Source: a virus. Taken from it: a DNA stretch of 21,690 nt. Position numbers and translations under genes: made by a program. Within the stretch, counting starts at the first letter, position 1, and every line of letters starts with the position of its first letter. The notes under the pieces are model-generated. The model was not told the DNA's origin and searched no databases. It worked only from the letters and a program-made list of their open reading frames with translations. Of this stretch, positions 4,730 through 21,119 are shown one piece after another. Location of the stretch: the IMG/VR virus record IMGVR_UViG_3300009788_004533, positions 1-21,690 of that record. The stretch is one strand, 5' to 3'.

Positions 4730-4960
4730 ATGAGAGATTATGTTTTTTATTTAGAGCCTGATGAAGATATTACAGCGTATGAACTAGCTCTTATTTTAAT
4801 GTTACAACGTCCGACTCTTCAATGGATTGATATAGATCATGATATACTGCATAAGCAATATCCTCAACTGGAAAGGCATTTAAGGAAAGGGGCACGCGGA
4901 GAAACTATTGCAGAAACAACAAGCGGTAGTATCGCAACTATCGTTGACTCATTAGGGTAG
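4730..4960 (+). CDS. Hypothetical protein, 76 aa
   Basis: ATG at 4730 follows AATAGGAG. It is a small acidic protein with no recognised domain, 14 bases behind the metalloprotease-like gene and likely in the same operon. Confidence 0.6.
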   Translation: MRDYVFYLEPDEDITAYELALILMLQRPTLQWIDIDHDILHKQYPQLERHLRKGARGETIAETTSGSIATIVDSLG

Positions 4961-5082
4961 CCACAAAACAATTAGCTTGCGCGGCTACTTTGACTGTATG
5001 GCAAGCTTAGAATTAATTGAAACATCCCGGCAGCGATCAAGGTGTATAAAGCTGGGTATTAACACTACTTGGGAGGAAGAAA

Positions 5083-5352
5083 ATGAATTCATACATTGTT
5101 GCGTTTAGACCACCTGATGAAACCTTTAAAAAAATGAAAACTGTTTCTGATGCTTGCATTAAGGCAGGTGTTGATTTACCAACAGAAGTGTCAAGGTTTT
5201 TTGGTGATTCTGAATCAGATCCGAAAGGTGTTGAAATTGACATCAAGGATGCTATTGAAGAATGGACTGGTGATATGTCTCAAGGATTCCAGGTTGACCT
5301 TGGGAAGTTACCAAAAGACGTGAAATATATTCGGTTTTATAACCAGTGGTAA
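5083..5352 (+). CDS. Hypothetical protein, 89 aa
   Basis: ATG at 5083 follows a strong GGGAGGAAG. The acidic alpha/beta protein begins with a short strand (SYIVAFRPP), has a helical middle and ends in a strand (VKYIRFYNQW). It looks like the small unknown proteins found in phage accessory blocks; no family is named. Confidence 0.65.
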   Translation: MNSYIVAFRPPDETFKKMKTVSDACIKAGVDLPTEVSRFFGDSESDPKGVEIDIKDAIEEWTGDMSQGFQVDLGKLPKDVKYIRFYNQW

Positions 5353-5709: not shown

Positions 5710-6039
5710 AGCATTGTAGCAGACCCTAAAGACACAGGTTAAAATTATCTTGCAATGTTAGCATCAGAATGGCCATGTTTTTGGGGCTGTTGAAGCGAGG
5801 CGTCATTTATCGGTAGGCAAACAGAGCTGCGGAATATGCCGATACCGGAATGCGTTAAAAGGCTATCTATCGTAGCAATTGAAACCGACACAGGAAAAAG
5901 CATCTGAGGGGTTCTGAAGGGGTATTTTTAGACTGAATGGTCTGCTCTGTGGGTGTCTTTGTATTCGTCGCGCAGAGAGTATCTGAGGGGTTTAGATTTG
6001 TAAATTCTAAAGTCTTTTATGTGGAGGAGGAGAAGAGTC
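5710..6039. other. 330-base stretch without an intact gene
   Basis: No frame here has both a start codon and useful length. Two exact copies of ATCTGAGGGGTT lie at 5902-5913 and 5981-5992. A hairpin pairs TTTAGATTT (5991-5999) with AAATTCTAAA (6002-6011) just upstream of the helicase ribosome binding site. One frame (about 5770-5870) reads like protein, including SCGICRYRN, but has stops on both sides and no start, so it may be a gene remnant. I see no clear promoter. Confidence 0.5.
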
Positions 6040-7425
6040 GTGAATAAGGAATCTCAATATCAACAATATCAACAGTTTATTGAACATAAAATACATTTGA
6101 CCGAAAATTTTGGTTTTACTCCTACCTGGATACCGGATATATTATTCGATTTTCAGAAGTTTCTTATAGAGTGGGCATGTCAAAAAGGACGGGCTGCGCT
6201 TTTTGAAGATTGCGGAATGGGGAAGACATTCCAATACCTGACAATCGCTGAGAACATTGTCAGACGTACCAATAAACGAGTGCTTATCCTCACGCCTTTG
6301 GCAGTATCCTTTCAAACGGTACTGGAGGGGGAAAAATTAGGCGTAGAGGTTACTCGTCGTCGGACAGGTATCAATTCATCTGATAAGATTGTTGTGACCA
6401 ATTATGAGCGACTGCACTATTTTAATTCACAGGATTTTATCTGCACAATTTGTGACGAAAGTTCGATCTTAAAAAATTACGATGGAGAGTACAGAAAAGT
6501 TATCACGGATTTTATGAAAAAACATCCTTACCGGTTTCTCTGCACAGCTACAGCCGCTCCCAATGATTGGCCGGAGATCGGTACATCTTCCGAGGCTCTT
6601 GGGTACTTGGGATTTACCGATATGCTCGCAAAGTTTTTCAAAAAGACAAAAAAGGGGAGAAGTCGAAGAGATGAACTGAAGGCGGGCATGTATCGTTTTC
6701 GTGGACATGCGGAAGAGAATTTTTGGCGATGGGTATGTTCCTGGGCAAGAGCGATAAGAAAGCCGTCTGATATGGGGTTCGATGATGACGGTTTTGTCCT
6801 GCCGGAATTAATCCGTCAGCAGCACATAGTGAAAGCGAGCGCGCTGCCGGATGGATTCTTATTTGAAGTTCCTGCTGTCGGCCAACAAGAACAACGGAAC
6901 GAGCTCAAAAGGACAATAGTTCAGCGGTGTGAAAAAGCTGCTGAACTCATAAATGCTCATGATAGACATGCTGTGGCATGGTGCTATTTAATAGAAGAGG
7001 GCCATAGATTAGAAAAACTTATTCAGGGTTCTATCAATGTAGAAGGGGCCGATCCTGAAGAGAAAAAAGAAGAAGCATTTAAAGCCTTTATAAAAGGTGA
7101 ATTGCGTGTTATGATAAGCAAGCCGACTATTGCAGGTTTTGGGCTAAATTGGCAGCATTGTGCTCACATGACGTTTTTCCCTTCACATTCTTATGAACAA
7201 TTCTATCAGGGGGTTCGTAGGATGTGGCGATTTGGGCAGAAAAGATCTGTAACGGTTGATGTCATTTCAACCGAAGGTCAGAAAAGAGTATTAAATAATC
7301 TACAACGAAAATCGGTAGCAGCAGATAAAATGTTTACGATGTTGACGACAATGATGAAACATGAACTGAATATTCATCATACAAATATGTACACACAAGA
7401 GGAGGTCATTCCATCATGGCTGTAA
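6040..7425 (+). CDS. Phage SNF2-family DEAD-like helicase
   Basis: I start at GTG 6040 because GGAGGAGGAGAAG lies directly upstream; the ATG at 6019 would contain that site. The 461-residue protein has a Walker A-like CGMGKT (residues 58-63), a DExx box as DESS (139-142), motif III as CTATAAPN (168-175), and the SNF2-type final motif QGVRRMWRFGQKR near residue 400, which supplies the arginine finger. These are ATP-driven DNA translocases. Phages often encode this short form beside a DNA methyltransferase, and here the last 10 bases overlap the methyltransferase gene. The pair may cooperate in DNA modification or replication; the exact role is inferred. Confidence 0.85.
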   Translation: MNKESQYQQYQQFIEHKIHLTENFGFTPTWIPDILFDFQKFLIEWACQKGRAALFEDCGMGKTFQYLTIAENIVRRTNKRVLILTPLAVSFQTVLEGEKLGVEVTRRRTGINSSDKIVVTNYERLHYFNSQDFICTICDESSILKNYDGEYRKVITDFMKKHPYRFLCTATAAPNDWPEIGTSSEALGYLGFTDMLAKFFKKTKKGRSRRDELKAGMYRFRGHAEENFWRWVCSWARAIRKPSDMGFDDDGFVLPELIRQQHIVKASALPDGFLFEVPAVGQQEQRNELKRTIVQRCEKAAELINAHDRHAVAWCYLIEEGHRLEKLIQGSINVEGADPEEKKEEAFKAFIKGELRVMISKPTIAGFGLNWQHCAHMTFFPSHSYEQFYQGVRRMWRFGQKRSVTVDVISTEGQKRVLNNLQRKSVAADKMFTMLTTMMKHELNIHHTNMYTQEEVIPSWL

Positions 7426-8372
7426 AAGAACAGGTCATAGAAGAAGAATACGCCATTTATAATGGCGACTGTATCGAAGTCCTTGAAACATTACCGGATG
7501 AATCAGTTGATCTATCCGTGTATTCTCCGCCATTCTGCGGTCTCTATAATTACAGTTCAGACCCTAGAGATATGTCTAATAACGGCTATACAGAATTTTT
7601 TGAACACTATATGTTTCTTTTAGAGCATATTTCCAGGGTGACGAAGGCAGGCAGGGTCACAACCGTTCATTGTATGGATATTCCTGCCCAAGGCGCCCGT
7701 ATCGGAGGTTTGATTGATTTTCCAGGTGATATTATTCAGGCGCACAAGAAGGTAGGTTTTAAGTACTGGACGCGGCGCAATATATGGAAAGAACCTCTGC
7801 GTATAAGGAACCGAACTATGTCTAAAGGATTGGCGCATAAGACTATTGTCGAAGATTCCCTTGATTCAAATATCGCAGGTGCGGACTATCTTTTACAATT
7901 TCGCAAAAAAGGAAAGAGCATCGTCCCCGTTACCCATACGGATGGGTTCCTTTCGTACGCCGGGTGTACTCCTATGCCGCCTGATGCAGTAAAATATAGA
8001 GGCTATATGGGAGACCAGACAAAGAATAAATTTAGTCATTGGATATGGCAGCAATACGCCTCGTCAGATTGGAATGATGTTCGTCCTAAAGAAGTCTTGC
8101 CATATAAAGCAAGTAAAGAGCCTGAGGATGAGCAACATGTGCATCCTTTGCAGCTTGACATCATTGAACGTGCGGTTGCCCTGTGGTCCAACCCAGGCGA
8201 GGTCGTGTTGAGTCCATTCATGGGTATTGGCTCTGAAATATTCGTAGCGGTCAAAAATAAGCGAAAAGGCATAGGCATTGAACTCAAGACATCGTATTTT
8301 CAACAGGCATGTCGAAACCTGAAGAAGGCAGTTCTTGAAGCTGCAAAACAAGAACAAGGCATGTTATTTTAA
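7416..8372 (+). CDS. DNA N4/N6 methyltransferase (beta-type motif order)
   Basis: The 318-residue protein has the catalytic motif IV as YSPPF at residues 36-40, ahead of the cofactor-binding motif I region SPFMGIG at about 266-272, which is the beta-type order of amino-methyltransferases. SPPF/SPPY variants are commonest in N4-cytosine enzymes, whereas N6-adenine enzymes usually have DPPY, so N4-cytosine is favoured but not proven. The region between is the likely target recognition domain. ATG at 7416 has AGGAGG at 7400-7405 and overlaps the helicase gene by 10 bases, so the two are translationally coupled. No partner nuclease is present, which fits a self-protecting phage methylase. Confidence 0.85.
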   Translation: MAVKEQVIEEEYAIYNGDCIEVLETLPDESVDLSVYSPPFCGLYNYSSDPRDMSNNGYTEFFEHYMFLLEHISRVTKAGRVTTVHCMDIPAQGARIGGLIDFPGDIIQAHKKVGFKYWTRRNIWKEPLRIRNRTMSKGLAHKTIVEDSLDSNIAGADYLLQFRKKGKSIVPVTHTDGFLSYAGCTPMPPDAVKYRGYMGDQTKNKFSHWIWQQYASSDWNDVRPKEVLPYKASKEPEDEQHVHPLQLDIIERAVALWSNPGEVVLSPFMGIGSEIFVAVKNKRKGIGIELKTSYFQQACRNLKKAVLEAAKQEQGMLF

Positions 8373-9501: not shown

Positions 9502-10755
9502 ATGGATGGTCTTATGCAACAAACACTGAAAAGCACATTAGATATTATACGGGCAGTTTCCCGTGCATCAGATATAAAAGTACGGCGTGGGTTCGTGGAT
9601 TTTTTAGCCGACCGTATTATCCAGGCCACTACCCAGCCGACACTCCTGGCGACGGTTGAACGCCTGGCAGCGCTGCTTGATACAAAAATGGAATACATAG
9701 GCAGCTCGAAAATTGCTGCGTTTATGCAATGTGTGAACGCCCTGGATGCTTCAGCCGTTCTGGATTGGCTGAGGGACTATCCACGAATAGCAGCTATGGT
9801 TATTATGCAAAAAGAGACAAAGGAGTATGAGGCTTGTCTGTCTAACCTCGAGATTTCAGTATCAGTGAATCAAGACAAAGGCACCGCCCTGCCTACTGTT
9901 GGTTGGGATATTCAGATACATGTCACCTGCCTTTCACCCCTGGCGCATGGTGCGGATACTAAAGCCGGAAATGCTACGATCTTTCGGCGGATGCAAGTGT
10001 TGAGTACGACAGAACAAATACTCTCACTGCCATTTTATGCAGGTAACGCGATTCGTGGGCAGATGCGGGATTTGTTAGCTGATCATTTCCTGTCGTCAAT
10101 GGGTCTCATGCCTCGCAAAGACGATCCACCTTGCAATTTGTGGTTTTTCCATGCCCTGTATGCTGGGGGCGCATTGGAAGAGAATAGCGCCCAGGCTAAA
10201 GTGTTGTCAAAGAAACTTGGCAGCAGCGGAGCGATGCGCTCTGAGGGTATGTATGAACTTCGCACTATGATTCCGCCTTTATCCGTACTCGGCACTGCGT
10301 TGGGAAATCGAATCTTAAGCGGGCGTGTGAACGTGTGTGATTTTCGTCCGCAATGCAAAGAGTGGGGTATCGGTGTGATCCCGGTCGGGAATCTTTTCGA
10401 GTGGACATATCTCACTCGTAGAGAAGACTATGAAAATTACGCTGAAGGTGAAAATGCCAGTATGATCGTCAATACTGAATGTCTAAAAGCCGGAACAGTA
10501 TTAGTCGGTGGAGTAGACATCAGCGACCATGCCACCGACATTGAGCGGGCCTGTCTCGGCAAGGGGTTAGCACTCTTGCGAGACGTCGGATATATCGGAG
10601 CGGAGAATCGGAGAGGATTAGGGCAGGTACGGATAGAGATTGAGAATCTGCCTGACTCAGAAAACTATACTGACTGCCTTGAAAAAAATCATATGGCGAT
10701 ACGCTCCTACTTGGAAGAGATCGGCGCGATTACGACACAAGGAGACTTAATATAA
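9502..10755 (+). CDS. csf2: Type IV CRISPR-Cas Cas7 subunit Csf2, with N-terminal helical extension
   Basis: This is the backbone subunit of a type IV CRISPR-Cas complex, which polymerises along the guide RNA. The Csf2/Cas7-like part runs from about residue 134 to 385: it starts with a beta strand and SPLAHGADTKAGN (145-157), then PFYAGNAIRGQMRD (177-190), typical of Cas7 RAMP proteins, and ends with a glycine-rich VGYIGAENRRGLGQV (362-376). Residues 1-130 are predicted helical and are not part of the Cas7 fold; they may be a fused Cas11-like small subunit. The total of 417 residues exceeds the roughly 300-350 I would expect for Csf2. The gene overlaps csf1 by one base (TAATG). Its GC content is clearly higher than that of the cysH/ibr genes. 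Confidence 0.85.
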   Translation: MDGLMQQTLKSTLDIIRAVSRASDIKVRRGFVDFLADRIIQATTQPTLLATVERLAALLDTKMEYIGSSKIAAFMQCVNALDASAVLDWLRDYPRIAAMVIMQKETKEYEACLSNLEISVSVNQDKGTALPTVGWDIQIHVTCLSPLAHGADTKAGNATIFRRMQVLSTTEQILSLPFYAGNAIRGQMRDLLADHFLSSMGLMPRKDDPPCNLWFFHALYAGGALEENSAQAKVLSKKLGSSGAMRSEGMYELRTMIPPLSVLGTALGNRILSGRVNVCDFRPQCKEWGIGVIPVGNLFEWTYLTRREDYENYAEGENASMIVNTECLKAGTVLVGGVDISDHATDIERACLGKGLALLRDVGYIGAENRRGLGQVRIEIENLPDSENYTDCLEKNHMAIRSYLEEIGAITTQGDLI

Positions 10756-11426
10756 TGCATCCGGTAAGTTTAATTTCTCAGTCAATAACTAAGCATGAAG
10801 ATCGTCCTGTCTTGCCCTGCGAGCCACAAGAAAGTATCTGTGCGATTACCGGGGAACAGGGAGCATGTATCTCGCGCAAAAAGCTCTTAGGAAAATCATT
10901 CACAAATCTTGATTTACTCGCACGGCCTGAAAGTGAGATGGTCAGCGTAGACGCCTATTACGCCCTGAAATTCAAATGGGAGCGGATGAATTCCTGGTGG
11001 TGTGATGGAAACACGTTTGAGCGGCTGACACGGCAGGGTGTCCGAGAAAAAGTATTTCAGGAGATAACGCCGGATACATGGACTGCCTATGCTACGACTA
11101 GCTACAAAAAGCATGGGGCATTGCGGGCGAAAGTCAACACTGGGAACTCTCGAATCTGGCTTTTCGACATGCGGCAAGTCAATTGTTCTGACATGGAGAA
11201 AGTCAGGGAATGGTGGCATGTTTTAGATATTGCTTTGCGATTCGGTATAGGTCGCAGAGTCTTAGAATCATTGATTTGTCCTCCATATATCATTGACAAG
11301 ATCGGACTCAAGACGTGGATGCTGTTTGAGACATGGGCACGCGGGAAATATCTATCATCGCTGTATGCGTTCTTGATATATCTACTGCCTAGTCAAAAGG
11401 AGTTGAAAGATGAAAAAAGAGGATGA
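10755..11426 (+). CDS. csf1: Type IV CRISPR-Cas Cas8-like subunit Csf1
   Basis: The 223-residue protein has the size, context and sequence features of Csf1, the Cas8-like subunit at the 5' end of the guide in type IV complexes. A Cys-containing ICAITGEQG (28-36) is followed by FTN (49-51), a VSVDAYYAL stretch (63-71) and a conserved MNSWWC (78-83). In Csf1 proteins the first segment normally forms a zinc finger with paired CxxC motifs. Here the second Cys of the first pair is replaced by Thr (CAIT), leaving only scattered cysteines (22, 29, 38, 83), so the finger looks degenerate. AAGGAG at 10739-10744 precedes ATG 10755. The stop lies 17 bases inside the cysH-like gene. Confidence 0.75.
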   Translation: MHPVSLISQSITKHEDRPVLPCEPQESICAITGEQGACISRKKLLGKSFTNLDLLARPESEMVSVDAYYALKFKWERMNSWWCDGNTFERLTRQGVREKVFQEITPDTWTAYATTSYKKHGALRAKVNTGNSRIWLFDMRQVNCSDMEKVREWWHVLDIALRFGIGRRVLESLICPPYIIDKIGLKTWMLFETWARGKYLSSLYAFLIYLLPSQKELKDEKRG

Positions 11427-12177
11427 AGTCTATTACAGACTCCATGCAAGAAGTCAGGCATTTAACTCTCTCGTCGAAAAGACAGCAATTTTTCTAAAAA
11501 GTGTCCTTGAAAATCATCACAATCCTTATTGCTCATACAGTACTGGCAAGGATAGTCTTGTGATGTTATCTCTTTGTCAAAAAGTCTTTCCTGACATGTG
11601 TACAATGTATCATGACTCAGGAGTTGAACTACCGGAATCCCATGATATTATGAAAAAGGCTGAACAATATTTCAAAATTACTATTCATATAGTGATAAGT
11701 CCAGTTGATGTGTTGAAAATATATAAAAAGAAAGGCGTGTTTGCAGAAGGGGCGAACAAAGACTATGCTTGGACGCCCGCTATGATGAATCCTATTATGG
11801 TATGGGCTCAGAAACATAAAAGGGATGTAGCGTTTATCGGGTTACGAAAGCAGGAGAGTCGTCCACGCAAGATACTTCTCCTGAAACGTGGAAAGTACTT
11901 TTATGCAAAGACAAAACACATTCATGAGGCTTTTCCTTTGGCTGATTGGACAGCACAAGATGTGTTCGCTTTTATTGTTTCGCGGGGCTTGGAGTGCCTT
12001 TTGCACCCGGCATATTCCAAAACTCGATTTGTTCAGTCCCCTGAAGATATTCGTGTGTCATGGTACTGCGACCCATCAATGATTAAAAAAGGGTATTTTG
12101 TATGGTTACGGTATTATTATCCAATACTGTTTCAGTCTTTACGTAAACAATTTCCAGAGGTATGCAGTTATGCCTAA
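11410..12177 (+). CDS. cysH: CysH-like PP-loop protein of type IV-B CRISPR-Cas
   Basis: The 255-residue protein is an adenine-nucleotide alpha-hydrolase of the PAPS reductase family. The PP-loop reads SYSTGKDSLVML (42-53), followed by YHDSGVELPES (67-77), GLRKQESRPR (144-153) and the PLADWTAQDVFAFI stretch (176-189) conserved in CysH/CysD-type proteins. A CysH-like gene is a known constant companion of type IV-B loci, and its role there is unproven. Family chemistry is ATP-dependent activation of a nucleotide or sulfur substrate. I see no CC...CxxC iron-sulfur motif of bacterial APS reductases. ATG 11410 follows AAAGGAG. The gene overlaps csf1 by 17 bases and ibrA by 8, and its A/T-rich composition differs from csf1. 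Confidence 0.85.
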   Translation: MKKEDEVYYRLHARSQAFNSLVEKTAIFLKSVLENHHNPYCSYSTGKDSLVMLSLCQKVFPDMCTMYHDSGVELPESHDIMKKAEQYFKITIHIVISPVDVLKIYKKKGVFAEGANKDYAWTPAMMNPIMVWAQKHKRDVAFIGLRKQESRPRKILLLKRGKYFYAKTKHIHEAFPLADWTAQDVFAFIVSRGLECLLHPAYSKTRFVQSPEDIRVSWYCDPSMIKKGYFVWLRYYYPILFQSLRKQFPEVCSYA

Positions 12178-13459
12178 GATCTACAAGGATGAAAATGTGC
12201 TACAGGCATTCTTTAAAAGAATACACTATGTATTTGATGAATTTGAGCTTGTATATTTAAGTGTTTCAGGTGGTAAAGATAGCTCAGTGATGGTTCAACT
12301 AGGGAATCAAGTTGCAAAAGAAAGAAAGAGGATATTCGATGTTTTTTATGTCGATTATGAGGCTCAATATCAAGTAACGATGAAGCATATCTATGAATTA
12401 AAAAAGTTATCACAAATACGAACTTTTTATCATTTAGCATTACCATTCAATTCGCATAATGCCAGTTCTATTTTTCAACCACACTGGCAACCCTGGGACC
12501 CCGATAAAAAAAATAAATGGGTAAGAGATCTTCCGGAAGATTCTCTTAATATTTCTAATCATCCTTTTGGTAATTTGTTTACAAGGGGTGAAGAAGTTGA
12601 GCAGTTCATGTTTAAATTCCCCTATTGGCTGATGCAAAAACATCAGCAAAAGAAGGTTGCGTGTTTGGTAGCTATTAGATCGGATGAAAGTTTGAATAGA
12701 TTCCGAGCTATCGCATTCGGCAAAAAATTATACAAGGATAAAAAGTGGAGCACGGAAGTAAGACCTGATGTTTTTAATTTTTATCCGGTTTATGACTGGC
12801 GCACTGAAGATATATGGGGAGCAGTGTCGAAATTTGAATTACTCTTCAACGACGTGTACGAAATGATGTATAAAAATGGAGTATCCATACACGAACAGCG
12901 CATCTGTCAACCTTACGGAGCAGATCAAAGAATTTCCTTAAATCAGTGGGCACGGTTGGAACCTGAAACGTGGTCGAAAATTGTCAATCGAGTTTCAGGG
13001 GCCAACTTCGGGAATATTTATTGTAAGAGCACATTATTAGGCCATAATGGAACGGAGAAACCTGGGCATTTAACATGGCAACAGTATGCCGTTTTTTTAT
13101 TAGAGACAATCGGGCTGTATTCCAAAGAATTAATGGAACACTACAGGCGAAAAATAAAAATCTTTTTTGAGTTCTATAGAAGGAATCACGATATCGAAAT
13201 AAAAAATATTCCGGATGAACTTTCTCTTAAACACATTAAAGAGAATTTTGTGGAAACGGGAAAGTGGATACACTGGAAAAGGATTGCGAGATGTTTGGAA
13301 AAAAATGATTACGCATGTAAATCATTATCATATGGTCTTACCATACCGGATTTTGAAGAAATAATTATCTTGCGTGAAAAATGGGGAAAATTCCTGGGTA
13401 TCCAAACACATACGAAAGATATGAGGCACTTAAAGGAGAAATTAGATGCCGTTAATTAA
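12170..13459 (+). CDS. ibrA: IbrA-like PAPS-reductase-family protein (DUF3440)
   Basis: I start at ATG 12170, behind AGAGG; an upstream ATG at 12098 would add 24 unsupported residues. The 429-residue protein has a perfect PP-loop SGGKDSS (33-39), then CLVAIRSDESLNRFRAI (165-181), FYPVYDWRTEDIW (204-216) and QRICQPYGADQR (243-254), all hallmarks of IbrA/DUF3440. In Escherichia coli, IbrA and IbrB are co-encoded and were reported to raise expression of immunoglobulin-binding proteins, but their biochemistry is open. The PP-loop predicts ATP-dependent nucleotidyl transfer or thiolation-type chemistry. It overlaps the cysH-like gene by 8 bases and ibrB by 14, inside the csf operon. Confidence 0.88.
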   Translation: MPKIYKDENVLQAFFKRIHYVFDEFELVYLSVSGGKDSSVMVQLGNQVAKERKRIFDVFYVDYEAQYQVTMKHIYELKKLSQIRTFYHLALPFNSHNASSIFQPHWQPWDPDKKNKWVRDLPEDSLNISNHPFGNLFTRGEEVEQFMFKFPYWLMQKHQQKKVACLVAIRSDESLNRFRAIAFGKKLYKDKKWSTEVRPDVFNFYPVYDWRTEDIWGAVSKFELLFNDVYEMMYKNGVSIHEQRICQPYGADQRISLNQWARLEPETWSKIVNRVSGANFGNIYCKSTLLGHNGTEKPGHLTWQQYAVFLLETIGLYSKELMEHYRRKIKIFFEFYRRNHDIEIKNIPDELSLKHIKENFVETGKWIHWKRIARCLEKNDYACKSLSYGLTIPDFEEIIILREKWGKFLGIQTHTKDMRHLKEKLDAVN

Positions 13460-13976
13460 AATAGATATGCCTGTGTTAAGTCCTAAAATGGTTCCAATAG
13501 AGGATGTTATTGCGAATGACTACAATCCTAATACGGTAGCTCCTCCAGAGATGAAGCTTTTAAAGCTTTCAATTCTTGAAGATGGTTTTACTCAGCCTAT
13601 TGTCACCTATTACGATAAGAAAGAAAAAAAATATATCATTGTTGATGGTTTTCATCGGTATAGATGTGCGAAGGAATATTTTCAGTTACCGGAAGTTCCT
13701 GTTGTTGTCATTGATAAACCGCTTGAACATCGAATAGCCTCTACAATAAGGCATAACAGGGCACGGGGTGTTCATGGGATACGGAGCATGAGTGAGGTTG
13801 TTTTTAGCCTGACAAAGAAGGGGTGGGATGATAAAAAAATATGTCACCACCTAGGAATGGAATTAGAAGAAGTGGTAAGATTAAAACAGATTACCGGTTT
13901 AAAGGAGGCATTCTGCAATCATGAATTTTCAAAATCTTGGGAAGAATTCGAGGAGAAAGCCGAGCATGAACTTTAA
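13446..13976 (+). CDS. ibrB: IbrB-like ParB/sulfiredoxin-fold protein
   Basis: The 176-residue protein has the ParB-like nuclease domain order seen in IbrB: ANDYNPNTVAPPEM (23-36), ILEDGFTQPIV (43-53), IVDGFHRYRCA (65-75) and RHNRARGVHG (102-111), which is the ParB arginine box. IbrB is the obligate neighbour of IbrA. ParB-fold proteins can bind CTP, ATP or DNA, and some cut or mark DNA; which applies here is unknown. ATG 13446 has AAAGGAGAA upstream. It overlaps ibrA by 14 bases and csf3 by 11, so it is part of one coupled message. Confidence 0.87.
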   Translation: MPLIKIDMPVLSPKMVPIEDVIANDYNPNTVAPPEMKLLKLSILEDGFTQPIVTYYDKKEKKYIIVDGFHRYRCAKEYFQLPEVPVVVIDKPLEHRIASTIRHNRARGVHGIRSMSEVVFSLTKKGWDDKKICHHLGMELEEVVRLKQITGLKEAFCNHEFSKSWEEFEEKAEHEL

Positions 13977-14604
13977 AATCATTTTTCAGCTTGACGGATG
14001 CGGAATCTATTACGATCCTAATGAGCCGATTCATCTTGATTCCTTGCTTGCCTGGGCACTCGTTCCAATGCAAACGACAAGACAAAATCTTGAGCGAAGC
14101 GATACGCCGGATGATATTCACCTGCCACTTTTGCGATCGACAATACATGGCTCAAAGGTCTGGCATGCGTCAGCACTTTTCCCTAAGCAGGAAGGACATG
14201 AAACGCTCAGGTTTTGGCGCAAAAGATTTGACCAGTCCCGGATCGGAATGACCTCTGGTAGCCCGAACTTGCAAAACGGTCCCTACCGAGAATATAATAT
14301 GCCAGTACCACTGTTGCTCGTATCGCGCATAGTAGCGTATGCAAGCGGAAACCGAAAAGAAGTCAAGCGGATATTAAAAAAGCATATTAAATATCTGGGC
14401 AAAAAGCGGGCATATGGTTATGGTCGGGTAGTGTCAATCGACTATGAGGAGACCTCGGAAGATTGGAGCTTAGCTAAAAACGGGAAGGCGATGCGGTGGT
14501 TGCCATATCCGGACGGGTGGAGGCTCTGTCGCGTATCCCCACCTTACTGGAACCCAGTTGACCGAATACAGGTCTGCGAAATTGGAGAAATTATTCCAGA
14601 TTAA
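13966..14604 (+). CDS. csf3: Type IV CRISPR-Cas Cas5 subunit Csf3
   Basis: I start at ATG 13966, behind GAGGAGA; the ATG at 13921 would only extend the overlap with ibrB. The 212-residue protein is a Cas5-type RAMP with GSPNLQNGPYREYNMPVP (98-115), a conserved Csf3 block, and the glycine-rich loop LGKKRAYGYGRV (144-155). Cas5 subunits cap the 5' handle of the guide RNA and contact Csf1 and the last Cas7. The gene closes the operon and matches csf1 and csf2 in higher GC content, although the three A/T-rich cysH/ibr genes separate it from them. No cas6, dinG or CRISPR array follows. Confidence 0.85.
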   Translation: MNFKIIFQLDGCGIYYDPNEPIHLDSLLAWALVPMQTTRQNLERSDTPDDIHLPLLRSTIHGSKVWHASALFPKQEGHETLRFWRKRFDQSRIGMTSGSPNLQNGPYREYNMPVPLLLVSRIVAYASGNRKEVKRILKKHIKYLGKKRAYGYGRVVSIDYEETSEDWSLAKNGKAMRWLPYPDGWRLCRVSPPYWNPVDRIQVCEIGEIIPD

Positions 14605-16516: not shown

Positions 16517-18469
16517 CTACGAAGATGCAACAACATGGTCGCCACTACCAGGTATAGAAAATGGTTTAAAGGCAGCTACGTCAATTTTATGTATCTTCTT
16601 CAACACATGCCACACCATTCGTACTGTATCCGGCCCATCATTCTTATATTCTATTGGCATTTTCTCATGCGTTTGTTTGCCTTTATGTTTTGTAAATTGT
16701 GTCACTAGAAGACCTTGTTGAGAGTGGCGGCGGTTAACCCATATTTGCCGATGCTGTGCTACGGGACGAAGTGCCGCAATACCACCAAGCTTATTTCCCA
16801 TACTTGCCGGTATAAGCAGTTTTATCGGAAGCCTACGCCAATACTTCTTCGTTTCTTTTACTGCCTCTTTTGCGGCTGCTTGCATGTGTCTCAATGCTGT
16901 TGCATCCATTCCTGCTTCTTCTGCACATAATATTTTTTCTTCCCATGTCTCCCTGATTTGCTGAATTTTCTCTATACGAATGATATTGAGATACGCTCTC
17001 CCGATACCGGAAAAGGCAACAACATCTTCTAAATAGATAGTGACTCCCTTGCCAATATACCAGGGAAAACTCTCCCAAAAAATCTCATATATCTTACAGG
17101 CCAGGTCTTCAGGGGTTGATTGGTCACACCAGAAATGCCGGGTGTATAAATTTTTAGTAGATTTGTGAAAAGACCCGGCATAAATAGCGAAGGGGTCTGA
17201 GCCTTCCTGTGGAGTTCCGGCAACATCTACGGTCATTAGATGAATAAGTGGATGGTTTTTTGCGCTCAATCGGTCAGTAATCGGCGTGTCATTTGGCACA
17301 CTGCCGTCATAATTCACGAACCATTCGTCATAAAATTTCTGAAGGGCAACATCTATCGTTTCGTGCTGCTCTTCTTGCATAAAAATGTCTGTTCCCCAAT
17401 TTGCTGCAATAAAGACATAATCAGCTAACGTGAATCGAGCCTTCCAGGTTGGATGAAGTTGCTGAACGAATTGTTTGTATGTGTCCCAATGTTGATGAAT
17501 ATACTCTTCATGGTCTTGCTGGGTGTCATTGCGATGATCTTCATTTTCTATGCGGTCAATAAAATCACGGATATGAGGGATGTCTTCTGAGATGGTTCCC
17601 ATGAAGTCCTTGATAATCTCTTTTTCCCCTTGTATCGCCGGTATAGTCAATACCTTTGCCATCGGCTCTGCTTGTAAGACATCAATCACATCACCTCGCG
17701 CCTGGCATGTACCGACAATTGTCACTGAAATCGGCGTCTCTGTGTAGGCGCCACCGGCAAATCCAGCATCGGACTTGATCGTATGGACGGTTTTGACCGT
17801 GTGCGGGGCTGAGTGGGCTTCTTCATAGCCTTTGACCGGATCATTGACAATCAGCCTGCCTATACGCTTGCGGTTAAGTGTGACTGTCCCGCGTATAAGG
17901 CTTTTTAGTCCAACATACCGAATATAGGTAAATTCATGCGTTCGTTCAATCCCTGGAAGTTTCGGAACAGAAAAGAAGACTTCTCCTTGACCGGGACGCC
18001 ACGGCATTCCATAGGCGTCTCCGCAGAGCATCCCATAGTCTCCAATGATATTTACATTCGTGCGAAATTCTCTGCATAAATCCAAGAGTTCATTGACTGC
18101 CGTGTCCCGGTCATGCTCCATTCTCGTAATGTACCATTCAAGCCCATAACAGGTACAATGCGCAGTGAAACCCTTTAAAATTGACCCCTTTCCAGAATTA
18201 CGAAAGGTCACAATAAGAACTAAACGTCCCCGGATAGTAAGATACGTTATCATATCAGGATGTAAGTCGGCAAAGTCTGAGGTGAAGTCGTCAGGCATGT
18301 ATGCCGCCATCCATTCAAGCGGTTTATCGGCGTAATACCGAATACGGTCAATGCGTTCGGCAGGGGGAAATATGTCTGCATCAGGGACTAAGAGACGAGC
18401 CTGGCGTAGACTAAAAAATTGGTCGTTTTCTTGGCGGATTTGTGTTTTGAGTTTGGTGAGGAGTATCAT
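16517..18469 (-). CDS. Phage terminase large subunit
   Basis: This is the DNA-packaging ATPase and nuclease. I start at ATG 18469, whose ATGA overlaps the stop of the C5 methyltransferase; an upstream extension to 18589 is unlikely. In the 650-residue protein the Walker A-like loop is RNSGKGS (90-96), Walker B is RLIVND (205-210), and VGTCQARGD (252-260) fits the coupling motif III. The C-terminal RNase H-like nuclease has acidic residues in MTVDVAGTPQEGSD, in VTIYLEDVV and in PGSGDHVVAS at the end. The Walker A is slightly atypical. Gene order ParB-like, methyltransferase, terminase is a typical phage packaging neighbourhood. It converges with the + strand genes near 16500. Confidence 0.85.
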   Translation of the reverse strand: MILLTKLKTQIRQENDQFFSLRQARLLVPDADIFPPAERIDRIRYYADKPLEWMAAYMPDDFTSDFADLHPDMITYLTIRGRLVLIVTFRNSGKGSILKGFTAHCTCYGLEWYITRMEHDRDTAVNELLDLCREFRTNVNIIGDYGMLCGDAYGMPWRPGQGEVFFSVPKLPGIERTHEFTYIRYVGLKSLIRGTVTLNRKRIGRLIVNDPVKGYEEAHSAPHTVKTVHTIKSDAGFAGGAYTETPISVTIVGTCQARGDVIDVLQAEPMAKVLTIPAIQGEKEIIKDFMGTISEDIPHIRDFIDRIENEDHRNDTQQDHEEYIHQHWDTYKQFVQQLHPTWKARFTLADYVFIAANWGTDIFMQEEQHETIDVALQKFYDEWFVNYDGSVPNDTPITDRLSAKNHPLIHLMTVDVAGTPQEGSDPFAIYAGSFHKSTKNLYTRHFWCDQSTPEDLACKIYEIFWESFPWYIGKGVTIYLEDVVAFSGIGRAYLNIIRIEKIQQIRETWEEKILCAEEAGMDATALRHMQAAAKEAVKETKKYWRRLPIKLLIPASMGNKLGGIAALRPVAQHRQIWVNRRHSQQGLLVTQFTKHKGKQTHEKMPIEYKNDGPDTVRMVWHVLKKIHKIDVAAFKPFSIPGSGDHVVASS

Positions 18470-19590
18470 AAAGATGTAAGAGAATCCTTTTTTAAGCATT
18501 CTTGCCAGTAATCTTCTTGAACACCTATAAAAAATAAGCGTTCTCGACTTTGCGGCACATAGAAATATTTGGCATTTAAAAGCCAACATTTAACGATATA
18601 TCCTGATGCTTTTAATTCTCTTAAGATGTCAGCAAATATTAATTTCATCTTGCCCTTGACCATACCAGAGACATTCTCCATAATAAAAGCTTTAGGTTGC
18701 AATCCTTGCAAAAGTCGAGTGAATTCATGAAAGAGTGTATTTCTAGTGTCTTTCATCTGACGTTTTCCAGCAGTTGAGAATCCTTGACATGGCGGACTGC
18801 CATCTAATACGTCAAGCTCTCCTGATTTCATCAATCCTGCTAATTCCATACACTTCTCAACGGATAACTCGGCAATATCGCCATGATAGACCGGAATGTC
18901 AGGAAAGTTAAGCTTAAATGTTTCAACGGCATTATCATTCCATTCGATAGCTAAGAGTTCTTTGAATCCTGCCATTGAATAGCCAAGTGATGATCCTCCA
19001 CATCCGGCAAAGGTACTAATTACGGTTGGGGCGTTCTCTTCCTTTGGCACTAAGTGCTCTTGCCATGTTGCTTCTAAAATCTCAAGATATGACATGTATT
19101 TGGGAAAAGAGGATTGTGTTTGTCCTGAGAAAAGATGATTATTGATATTCATTGCAATTGATCGCATAAAACCGGGAGGAATAGAATTACCAATTCTTGC
19201 GACTTTCTCTTTCCTTTTTCCAATAAAATTATACTCATCAGGAAAAAAAGTTAAACGTTTAAATTCAGGAATTGAAATATATCTTTCTCTTGATGGATGG
19301 ATTATTCCAGTAATATCAATTTCTTGTTTAACAAGAGTACAACTTTCTCGATTCCATGATAATAATTTCGTATTGATTGAACCTGCTATATTATTACGAA
19401 CTTTTTTGAAAGCTCTCTCAACAGATTTACTATTATAATTTCCCGCCTCTATATATTTAGCTGCTTCTTTCAACCAATCAGGGAATTGACGTATATCTTG
19501 AGTAAGTTCATCAGCTACATCATGCAAAGCATCTTTTACAAAGAATGATTCAGGAGAAAGGACTTTTGGGCATAAATTATCAAATATCAT
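18466..19590 (-). CDS. Circularly permuted C5-cytosine DNA methyltransferase
   Basis: All core motifs of a C5-cytosine methyltransferase are present but in permuted order. Motif IX/X-like segments come first (RLTFFPDEYNFIG at 112-124, RIGNSIPPGFMRSIA at 132-146), then motif I FAGCGGSSLG (194-203), II AIEWND (214-219), IV GSPPCQGFS (264-272, catalytic C268), VI ENVSG (305-309) and VIII QSRERLFFIG (347-356) close to the C-terminus. Residues 1-97 are probably the target recognition domain. This order is known from M.BssHII-type enzymes. The gene overlaps the ParB-like gene upstream and the terminase downstream by ATGA. No partner nuclease is seen. Confidence 0.88.
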   Translation of the reverse strand: MIFDNLCPKVLSPESFFVKDALHDVADELTQDIRQFPDWLKEAAKYIEAGNYNSKSVERAFKKVRNNIAGSINTKLLSWNRESCTLVKQEIDITGIIHPSRERYISIPEFKRLTFFPDEYNFIGKRKEKVARIGNSIPPGFMRSIAMNINNHLFSGQTQSSFPKYMSYLEILEATWQEHLVPKEENAPTVISTFAGCGGSSLGYSMAGFKELLAIEWNDNAVETFKLNFPDIPVYHGDIAELSVEKCMELAGLMKSGELDVLDGSPPCQGFSTAGKRQMKDTRNTLFHEFTRLLQGLQPKAFIMENVSGMVKGKMKLIFADILRELKASGYIVKCWLLNAKYFYVPQSRERLFFIGVQEDYWQECLKKDSLTSL

Positions 19591-20358: not shown

Positions 20359-20553
20359 TCATAATTTGGCTTCTTTCTTCTTAGAGTCGTTCACATAAAA
20401 TCCCGGTCCCTTTAACACAAATGAGCTGAGGGATATGATCTTCTTCGTAGGCCCCTGACACAAGATGCATACGGTCAACGGATCATCGTAGAATCGTTGT
20501 AATAGTTCAAAGATTGTCCCACAAGATTCGCATTTATATTCATAAATCGGCAT
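20359..20553 (-). CDS. FmdB-family zinc-ribbon protein
   Basis: The 64-residue protein opens with MPIYEYKCESCG and has C8-x2-C11 and C29-x2-C32 with the central FELLQRF segment, the signature of FmdB-type zinc-ribbon proteins. FmdB proteins are small putative regulators of unclear role, usually chromosomal. The start overlaps the end of the lipoprotein gene by 14 bases. No function in a phage is known to me. Confidence 0.85.
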   Translation of the reverse strand: MPIYEYKCESCGTIFELLQRFYDDPLTVCILCQGPTKKIISLSSFVLKGPGFYVNDSKKKEAKL

Positions 20554-21058
20554 GAGCTTCTGCGATCATCTCCTGAAGTTTATCAGTGTATTGCGTTAAA
20601 TTCTCAATGTCATATACTATCAGTATCCGATCCCCGACTCCTCGAAAGAATAGGTATTTCTCGCGTGATGGTTTTATGAGTATTGTGACTGGCACATGCA
20701 CAAATAGTACATCCGCTTCGTATAATTCACCGGTGTAGGTTGCAACACACAGACCATAATCGGTATCATTTTCATAGCCCAGGCTGAATAGCCACTCGCG
20801 TAAAGCCTGTAGTATAGACTGGGGCTGGCAGGTTCCAGTGATCTGTTCCTGAATTGGTATGGGTGTCGGTGTAGATGTGGGTATGGGGGTGGGTGATTCT
20901 GTAGGTATTACTGTAGGTATTACTGTAGGTATCGGGGTGGGTATCAAATCCGGTAGCGATGGCGGTATATCGGAATCAGGAAGTTGTAACGGACACCCAA
21001 GAAGTAGTAGTATTATGAGTGCTGTGGTACTTTTTTTAAAAATCCTTTCGTGTGCCAT
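20540..21058 (-). CDS. Proline/threonine-rich lipoprotein
   Basis: I start at ATG 21058 because GGAGGG lies seven bases upstream; the ATG at 21070 would contain this site. In the 172-residue protein the signal peptide ends in a lipobox LLGC (19-22), so Cys22 should be lipidated. Residues about 35-68 are a low-complexity linker of PT, IPT and VIPT repeats, followed by a C-terminal domain of about 100 residues with alternating strands. Phage outer spanins are also proline-rich lipoproteins, but this one is larger and no inner spanin partner is seen. It may alternatively be a surface or superinfection-exclusion protein. Confidence 0.75.
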   Translation of the reverse strand: MAHERIFKKSTTALIILLLLGCPLQLPDSDIPPSLPDLIPTPIPTVIPTVIPTESPTPIPTSTPTPIPIQEQITGTCQPQSILQALREWLFSLGYENDTDYGLCVATYTGELYEADVLFVHVPVTILIKPSREKYLFFRGVGDRILIVYDIENLTQYTDKLQEMIAEAHADL

Positions 21059-21119
21059 ATCGCCCTCCATGTTGATTGTTATATTCCATCAAGGAGAAAG
21101 TTTACACTCTGCTTTCAAT

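Follow-up and report, generated by a model that had tools for sequence, protein, structure and literature searches.

Why do type IV-B CRISPR-Cas systems keep a gene for a CysH-like enzyme? Both the function of these systems and their reason for keeping this gene are an open question (PMC8175902, PMC7937560). The question is raised in an unusual form by IMG/VR virus record IMGVR_UViG_3300009788_004533, where a pair of genes known from phages, ibrA and ibrB, stands beside a cysH-like gene within a csf operon. We analyzed the complete record, which we call the window (21,690 bases). The answer that we tentatively favor is that, in this phage variant of type IV-B, the Csf ribonucleoprotein (Cas11-Csf2, Csf1, and Csf3) is a scaffold with an exchangeable slot for nucleic-acid-modifying enzymes, here CysH and the IbrA-IbrB pair. 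The operon is a chain of six overlapping genes at 9502-14604:

9502 to 10755, plus strand: cas11-csf2 fusion gene, 417 amino acids; Cas11-like part at residues ~1-120, a linker, and Csf2/Cas7 RAMP part at ~137-417
10755 to 11426, plus strand: csf1, type IV large subunit (Cas8-like); PADLOC typeIV_Cas8, 5.3e-11
11410 to 12177, plus strand: cysH-like gene for a PP-loop enzyme, which opens the exchangeable slot; PF01507, 3e-18; PP motif STGKDS
12170 to 13459, plus strand: ibrA, DUF3440-family PP-loop enzyme, 429 amino acids; DUF3440, 1.7e-26; PAPS_reduct, 2.4e-9; motif SGGKDS
13446 to 13976, plus strand: ibrB, protein with a ParB/sulfiredoxin N-domain, 176 amino acids; ParB_N, 7.9e-9; phrog_2159, 1.9e-64
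13966 to 14604, plus strand: csf3, type IV Cas5-like, the final gene of the operon; PADLOC typeIV_Cas5, 2.5e-39
11410 to 13976, plus strand: exchangeable enzyme block cysH-ibrA-ibrB, a slot whose contents vary among 30 distinct loci; 37% guanine plus cytosine (GC)

When recomputed, the overlaps along this chain are 1, 17, 8, 14, and 11 bases, exactly as a sequence-only reading of this DNA had given them for the same six genes, and profile searches with PADLOC, Pfam, and NCBIfam models agree with its csf, DUF3440, and ParB assignments.

Judged by its gene content, the operon is a phage-borne, array-less variant of type IV-B. It has Csf1, Csf2, Csf3, a CysH-like gene, and Cas11, the last as a fused domain. 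Csf2 matches PADLOC typeIV_Cas7 (3.9e-41) and the Csf2 of the type IV-B complex 7jhy (phmmer 3.1e-7), and Csf3 also matches the NCBIfam model cas5_csf3 (2e-23, under that model's curated cut-off). Csf1 is a large subunit of the Cas8 kind (PADLOC typeIV_Cas8, 5.3e-11) and not the Cas10-like HD subunit of type IV-C. In our tree of Csf2, which is without labelled IV-C references, the window is set apart from two IV-A sequences. As the sequence-only reading had it, the locus is array-less; nor is Cas6/Csf5 or DinG/Csf4 found there. The window contains no CRISPR-like repeats, and a search with Rfam gave zero matches. Cas1, Cas2, Cas6, and Csf5 are absent from the main open reading frames that were scanned (small ones were not all covered), and nothing in those main frames rises above noise for DinG/Csf4; a helicase at 6019-7425 gave 0.068 against Csf4.

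The type IV-B locus of Mycobacterium sp. JS623 (PDB 7jhy) likewise has csf1, cas11, csf2, csf3, and a CysH-like gene, with no array, Cas6, or DinG. It differs from the window in that the window has Cas11 fused to Csf2, csf2 preceding csf1, and ibrA-ibrB between cysH and csf3, and in that the window is a tailed-phage contig whereas the Mycobacterium locus is on a plasmid. The type IV-B systems of the Fuxiviridae (viruses of Bathyarchaeia) are also encoded by viruses and have CysH adjoining the csf genes, but these are archaeal viruses with a mini-array, and the excerpt of the report that we drew on mentions neither ibrAB nor a Cas11 fusion (PMC10848311).

What had been read as a plain csf2 gene does encode Csf2, but with about 136 extra N-terminal residues. 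Because residues 1-120 are a Cas11 domain, the gene is a Cas11-Csf2 fusion. PADLOC's Cas11 models miss this domain, while profile comparison detects it: the profile of the N-terminal domain matches the profile of plasmid IV-B Cas11 (hhalign 2.6e-6, probability 89%), stand-alone cas11 genes immediately 5' of csf2 in two other loci (7.8e-5 for L028 and 1.1e-4 for L025), and, as its best sequence match in the PDB, chain 11fs_N, which is named Cas11c (3.2e-4). Type IV-B loci on plasmids have cas11 as a gene of its own (131-156 amino acids) immediately upstream of csf2. An AlphaFold2 model of the fusion has a helical bundle (residues 2-115), a weak linker, and a RAMP domain (mean predicted local distance difference test score, or pLDDT, 79; predicted template modeling score 0.64), and Foldseek finds it to resemble Csf2 from type IV-A and IV-B complexes. 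As in Cas7-11 (gRAMP) of type III-E, Cas11 and Cas7 parts are fused in a single protein. In Cas7-11 several Cas7 domains form a nuclease, whereas the fusion in the window has one Cas11 and one Csf2 domain.

Does the same operon occur elsewhere, and with what in the place of the enzymes? Two alignment-based scans of IMG/VR gave 33 further loci, whose Csf2 is 46-65% identical to the window's. The fusion is kept in 33 of the 34 loci of this fused type (window included); in L019, it is split at an apparent frame break. In most of them, csf1 lies directly 3' of csf2. Merging near-copies left 30 distinct loci, again with the window included, and we annotated their operons with custom hidden Markov models. 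Single-protein queries with Csf2, Csf3, or CysH gave zero matches among viral contigs, an alignment of three sequences revealed the family, and a Csf2 alignment spanning all of the plasmid types was too diverse to be used as a query. The sampling was seeded by the Csf2 of the window and short conserved peptides, so this is not a complete survey, and the diversity of type IV-B is covered unevenly. Among 292 genomes of one haloarchaeal class, type IV Cas7 was found in 2 (one of them the query genome), which is too rare for a rate.

The accessory slot is filled in 30 of 30 distinct loci and is never empty. It holds CysH alone in 17 loci, IbrA in nine (the window, L011, L012, L017, L019, L020, L033, L035, and L047), and a radical-SAM protein in four (L037, L040, L043, and L048). 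Wherever the contig extends far enough, IbrB accompanies IbrA. Five of the nine ibrA loci have CysH too; in L011, L033, and L035, ibrAB lies between csf1 and csf3 with no CysH there, and the L019 locus is truncated. IbrA is the sole PP-loop gene of the entire L011 contig. Some slots further carry an N6/N4 DNA methylase, a GNAT acetyltransferase, or unassigned proteins. The slot is mostly the interval between csf1 and csf3, but it is just 3' of csf3 in L018, L044, L046, and L048, and the order is rearranged in L041.

CysH is swapped between operons, and its types do not track csf1, csf2, or csf3. Among the 22 fused-type loci with all four genes, the median pairwise identity is 45-49% for Csf1, Csf2, and Csf3 and 30% for CysH, and there are about ten types of slot CysH. 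The window and L010 have related scaffolds (Csf proteins ~60% identical) with different CysH types (28% identical). Conversely, CysH from L015 and L047 is 60% identical though the scaffolds are distant. In Mantel tests, the csf genes correlate among themselves (rho 0.29-0.56, permutation p 0.001-0.02), while CysH does not correlate significantly with csf1, csf2, or csf3 (rho 0.02-0.14, p 0.12-0.44).

As for ibrAB, the operons have captured an autonomous module. Since csf genes are found in the stretch of DNA examined at only two of the best 80 IbrA loci in IMG/VR, while IbrB is present at 80 of 80, the two genes form an independent pair. On the tree of Csf2, the presence or absence of ibrAB requires at least 11 changes. 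On the tree of IbrA, csf-linked copies are interleaved with csf-free phage copies (seven changes; with the well-supported branches only, at least five are forced for the csf-free group), which argues that ibrAB was recruited several times. For example, the window's IbrA pairs with that of L009, a phage locus where we saw no csf, beside haloarchaeal IV-B loci; IbrA from L047 pairs with Flavobacterium phages; and IbrA from L033 and L035 is near that of a Chlorobiaceae phage, on a weaker branch. An approximately unbiased test of one IbrA clade was inconsistent (log-likelihood 957 lower, p 0.119) and was not used.

The sequence-only reading had allowed that ibrAB might be a local insertion, absent from all other IV-B loci. 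In fact, ibrAB lies within the operon in eight related phage loci and in the viral loci L026, L027, and L075. It is also found a few kilobases from csf in DNA from Natrinema, Halomontanus, Halovenus, Actinarchaeum, and Rhodovastum, which includes haloarchaeal and alphaproteobacterial plasmids. We saw no ibrAB near csf in the loci from Thermococcus, Rhodococcus, a Skermania phage, or Bacteroidetes. Given its recurrence across related loci and the interleaving in the IbrA tree, we rejected an insertion in one phage as an explanation. Among known pairs, those of phages and E. coli resemble the window's in having adjacent and overlapping DUF3440 and ParB_N genes, but they are mostly stand-alone, and the window's pair is inside a csf operon with CysH.

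An independent pair might of course do independent work. Under this alternative, ibrAB would be a phage modification or regulatory module in a tolerant site of the csf operon and would share transcription with the Csf complex but not function. Several observations fit it or weigh against our proposal. In IMG/VR, csf is absent from the stretch of DNA examined at 78 of the best 80 ibrAB loci; in INPHARED, IbrA matches 211 of 50,697 phage records (~0.4%), and Csf2 matches just one. The closest IbrA to the window's (70% identical) is the one from L009, near which no csf was seen, and several plasmids have ibrAB 1-5 kilobases from csf rather than inside the operon. The GC content of the cysH-ibrA-ibrB block is lower than that of the csf genes (37% versus 47% in the window). 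Slot GC is often below csf GC, most strongly in several ibrAB loci, and amino-acid composition may contribute to this. More generally, the argument for a joint function is one from gene position, genes can be exchanged inside a phage operon without any shared function, and most of the loci come from metagenomic contigs to which no host is assigned. (For the window, a terminase search of INPHARED pointed to no host.)

Nevertheless, we consider an independent role for ibrAB unlikely. In all nine of the ibrA-bearing contigs of the fused type, ibrA is within the csf operon. With random placement, the probability of this would be ~1e-6, which is a rough guide as it ignores shared ancestry and neighboring loci are not independent. 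Across 27 whole contigs, no DUF3440 gene was found outside the operon; only four contigs have one, each time inside it. The csf operons have taken up ibrAB far more often (9 of 30) than its frequency of ~0.4% in INPHARED. Furthermore, ibrA takes the place of CysH in L011, L033, and L035, and the other recognized slot genes are enzymes of a modifying type rather than random phage genes.

What might these enzymes do? IbrA retains the PP-loop motif SGGKDS and further invariant residues. In Foldseek searches with its AlphaFold2 model (mean pLDDT 78), the nearest folds are APS/PAPS reductases, ATP sulfurylase, FAD synthase, NcsA, TtuA, and TilS; of these, NcsA, TtuA, and TilS modify tRNA, and NcsA is a tRNA thiolase. 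The CysH proteins of the slot have in common a PP motif and the motif G-L-R-x-x-E-S-x-x-R. Across the 18 that we aligned, the conserved C-terminal catalytic cysteine of canonical PAPS reductases is absent, and CasCysH was likewise reported without it (PMC8175902). IbrB has the conserved motifs N-x-Y-N-P-N, D-G-x-H-R, and N-R-A-R-G-x-H. DpdB, from the DNA-modification system Dpd, and DndB belong to the same ParB/sulfiredoxin superfamily as IbrB (PMC12839542). The radical-SAM proteins match PF04055 above its cut-off and NCBIfam models of B12-binding radical-SAM proteins below the cut-off.

IbrA and IbrB were named for the activation of prophage eib genes in E. coli, according to the passage that cites Sandt et al. 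2002 (PMC10434257), so IbrAB could be a transcriptional co-activator that merely regulates the operon or other phage genes. We think that this is very improbable: the PP-loop motif of IbrA is intact, its fold is that of an enzyme, and IbrA substitutes for CysH in three loci.

Another possibility builds on the published idea of the Csf complex as a sponge (PMC8175902): it would soak up guide RNAs of the host or other small RNAs, and the slot enzymes would act chemically on the RNA thus bound, by inactivating or tagging it, and not on a target. The solved IV-B complex does bind heterogeneous RNAs of ~55-60 nucleotides, few of them derived from arrays (PMC7937560), and the tRNA-modifying neighbors of IbrA would suit a role on RNA. 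On the other hand, the phage context and the presence in some slots of genes resembling N6/N4 DNA methylases suit DNA equally, and we regard the sponge as quite unlikely.

To return to a modifying Csf scaffold, the sequence-only reading had suggested ribonucleoprotein-directed modification by the enzymes of an array-less IV-B operon with CysH and embedded ibrAB. Its description of the operon holds, and the suggested function has gained indirect support, in that a B12-type radical-SAM protein can also occupy the slot in place of CysH or IbrA. Three findings go beyond that reading: Cas11 is fused to Csf2, CysH types are swapped, and ibrAB is usually csf-free. The sequences show how the operon is built, that cas11 and csf2 are fused in it, that ibrAB was captured independently more than once, and that one position is occupied in turn by CysH, IbrAB, or a radical-SAM protein. 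On these grounds, we infer that the Csf ribonucleoprotein may be a platform for modification enzymes. Sharing a slot may also mean sharing a reaction or a target.

If so, Cas11-Csf2 would assemble on RNA, as in the homologous solved IV-B complex, and the ribonucleoprotein would bind or hold a nucleic-acid target. CysH and IbrA, as PP-loop ATP pyrophosphatases, might activate a chemical group by adenylation or pass it to the nucleic acid, and IbrB, as a nucleotide-binding protein of the ParB/sulfiredoxin type, might gate or power the reaction, as has been proposed for DpdB in Dpd. The modification could mark or shield viral nucleic acid or alter host RNA, and the chemistry might be swapped among phages because hosts evolve against it. 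It is possible, if somewhat doubtful, that the CRISPR-derived ribonucleoprotein is a programmable or RNA-scaffolded modifier into whose Cas11-Csf2/Csf1/Csf3 platform CysH types, IbrA-IbrB, and B12-type radical-SAM proteins all plug.

Some known systems have similar enzymes. In Dpd, Dnd/Ssp, and BREX type 4, a ParB-type protein (DpdB, DndB) accompanies a base-modifying enzyme, or there is a PAPS-reductase-like enzyme (DndC, BrxP), but unlike the window, these systems have no Csf ribonucleoprotein. We recognized no DndA, DndD, DpdA, or BREX core genes in the window, and no DndA, DndD, or DndE among the main open reading frames scanned. IbrA matches DndC weakly (1.6e-5), and we do not assign the operon to Dnd/Ssp. 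A literature search for type IV CRISPR with ParB and CysH found no paper, although key surveys of type IV were outside that search. Titles and abstracts on DUF3440 had nothing on CRISPR, type IV-B and radical SAM were mentioned together in one paper, in which they have nothing to do with each other, and in the literature searched we found no report on the biochemistry of IbrA-IbrB.

We also noticed other genes in or near the slots. Where CysH is replaced by a radical-SAM protein, the protein has a B12-binding-like N-terminal part (L037:2001-3257, L040:4182-5528, L043:11519-12769, and L048:4848-6113), and the four are one family within the loci searched. By Csf2, the closest contig to the window is L010, which also has a radical-SAM gene (start of contig, 4781-5236, minus strand) just upstream of its CysH-type operon. 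Where ibrAB replaces CysH, a short gene for a small protein lies between csf1 and ibrA (L011:2173-2496, L033:11473-11760, L035:3502-3879, and L019:4442-4750). In IV-B loci, the short type of IbrA comes with a protein of ~265 amino acids with a conserved TPSNR/TPGNR motif (L017:3210-4004, L020:8577-9521, L005:9828-10667, L026, and L027:11560-12342), for which Pfam gave nothing above threshold and INPHARED phages gave no match. Two IV-B loci that are distant from each other encode a small protein with an EDDA motif 5' of cysH (L015:5204-5731 and L027:13319-13957); by eye, the motif resembles that of some glycosyltransferases, and Pfam and PHROG searches with the L015 protein gave no match. In Microbacterium phage Leaf (L061, 505-4137), genes for an acetyltransferase, a methyltransferase, and an IbrA-like protein form a row beside a glycosyltransferase gene. 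This row resembles the contents of some IV-B slots, and no csf was seen in that stretch.

Elsewhere in the window, the minus strand carries a phage terminase gene (phrog_38, 9.5e-21), and two genes lie upstream of the operon:

6019 to 7425: SNF2-like helicase
7416 to 8372: N6/N4 DNA methylase

A gene for a C5-cytosine DNA methylase (18466-19590, minus strand), whose match covers only part of the methylase domain, shares 124 bases with the terminase gene, and a 12-base tandem-like repeat (20856-20954) lies inside a minus-strand open reading frame (20540-21070).

Because the slot is filled by different enzyme modules of a modifying type in related viruses, its swapping suggests that type IV-B complexes are platforms for nucleic-acid modification. 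That unrelated enzyme classes (CysH, IbrAB, and radical SAM) take turns at the CysH position of one operon makes this hypothesis directly testable and provides natural swap experiments. If it is true, then IbrA-IbrB, a common phage gene pair, would gain a molecular context, and type IV-B would gain a function other than interference: RNA-guided or ribonucleoprotein-directed modification as a counter-defense.

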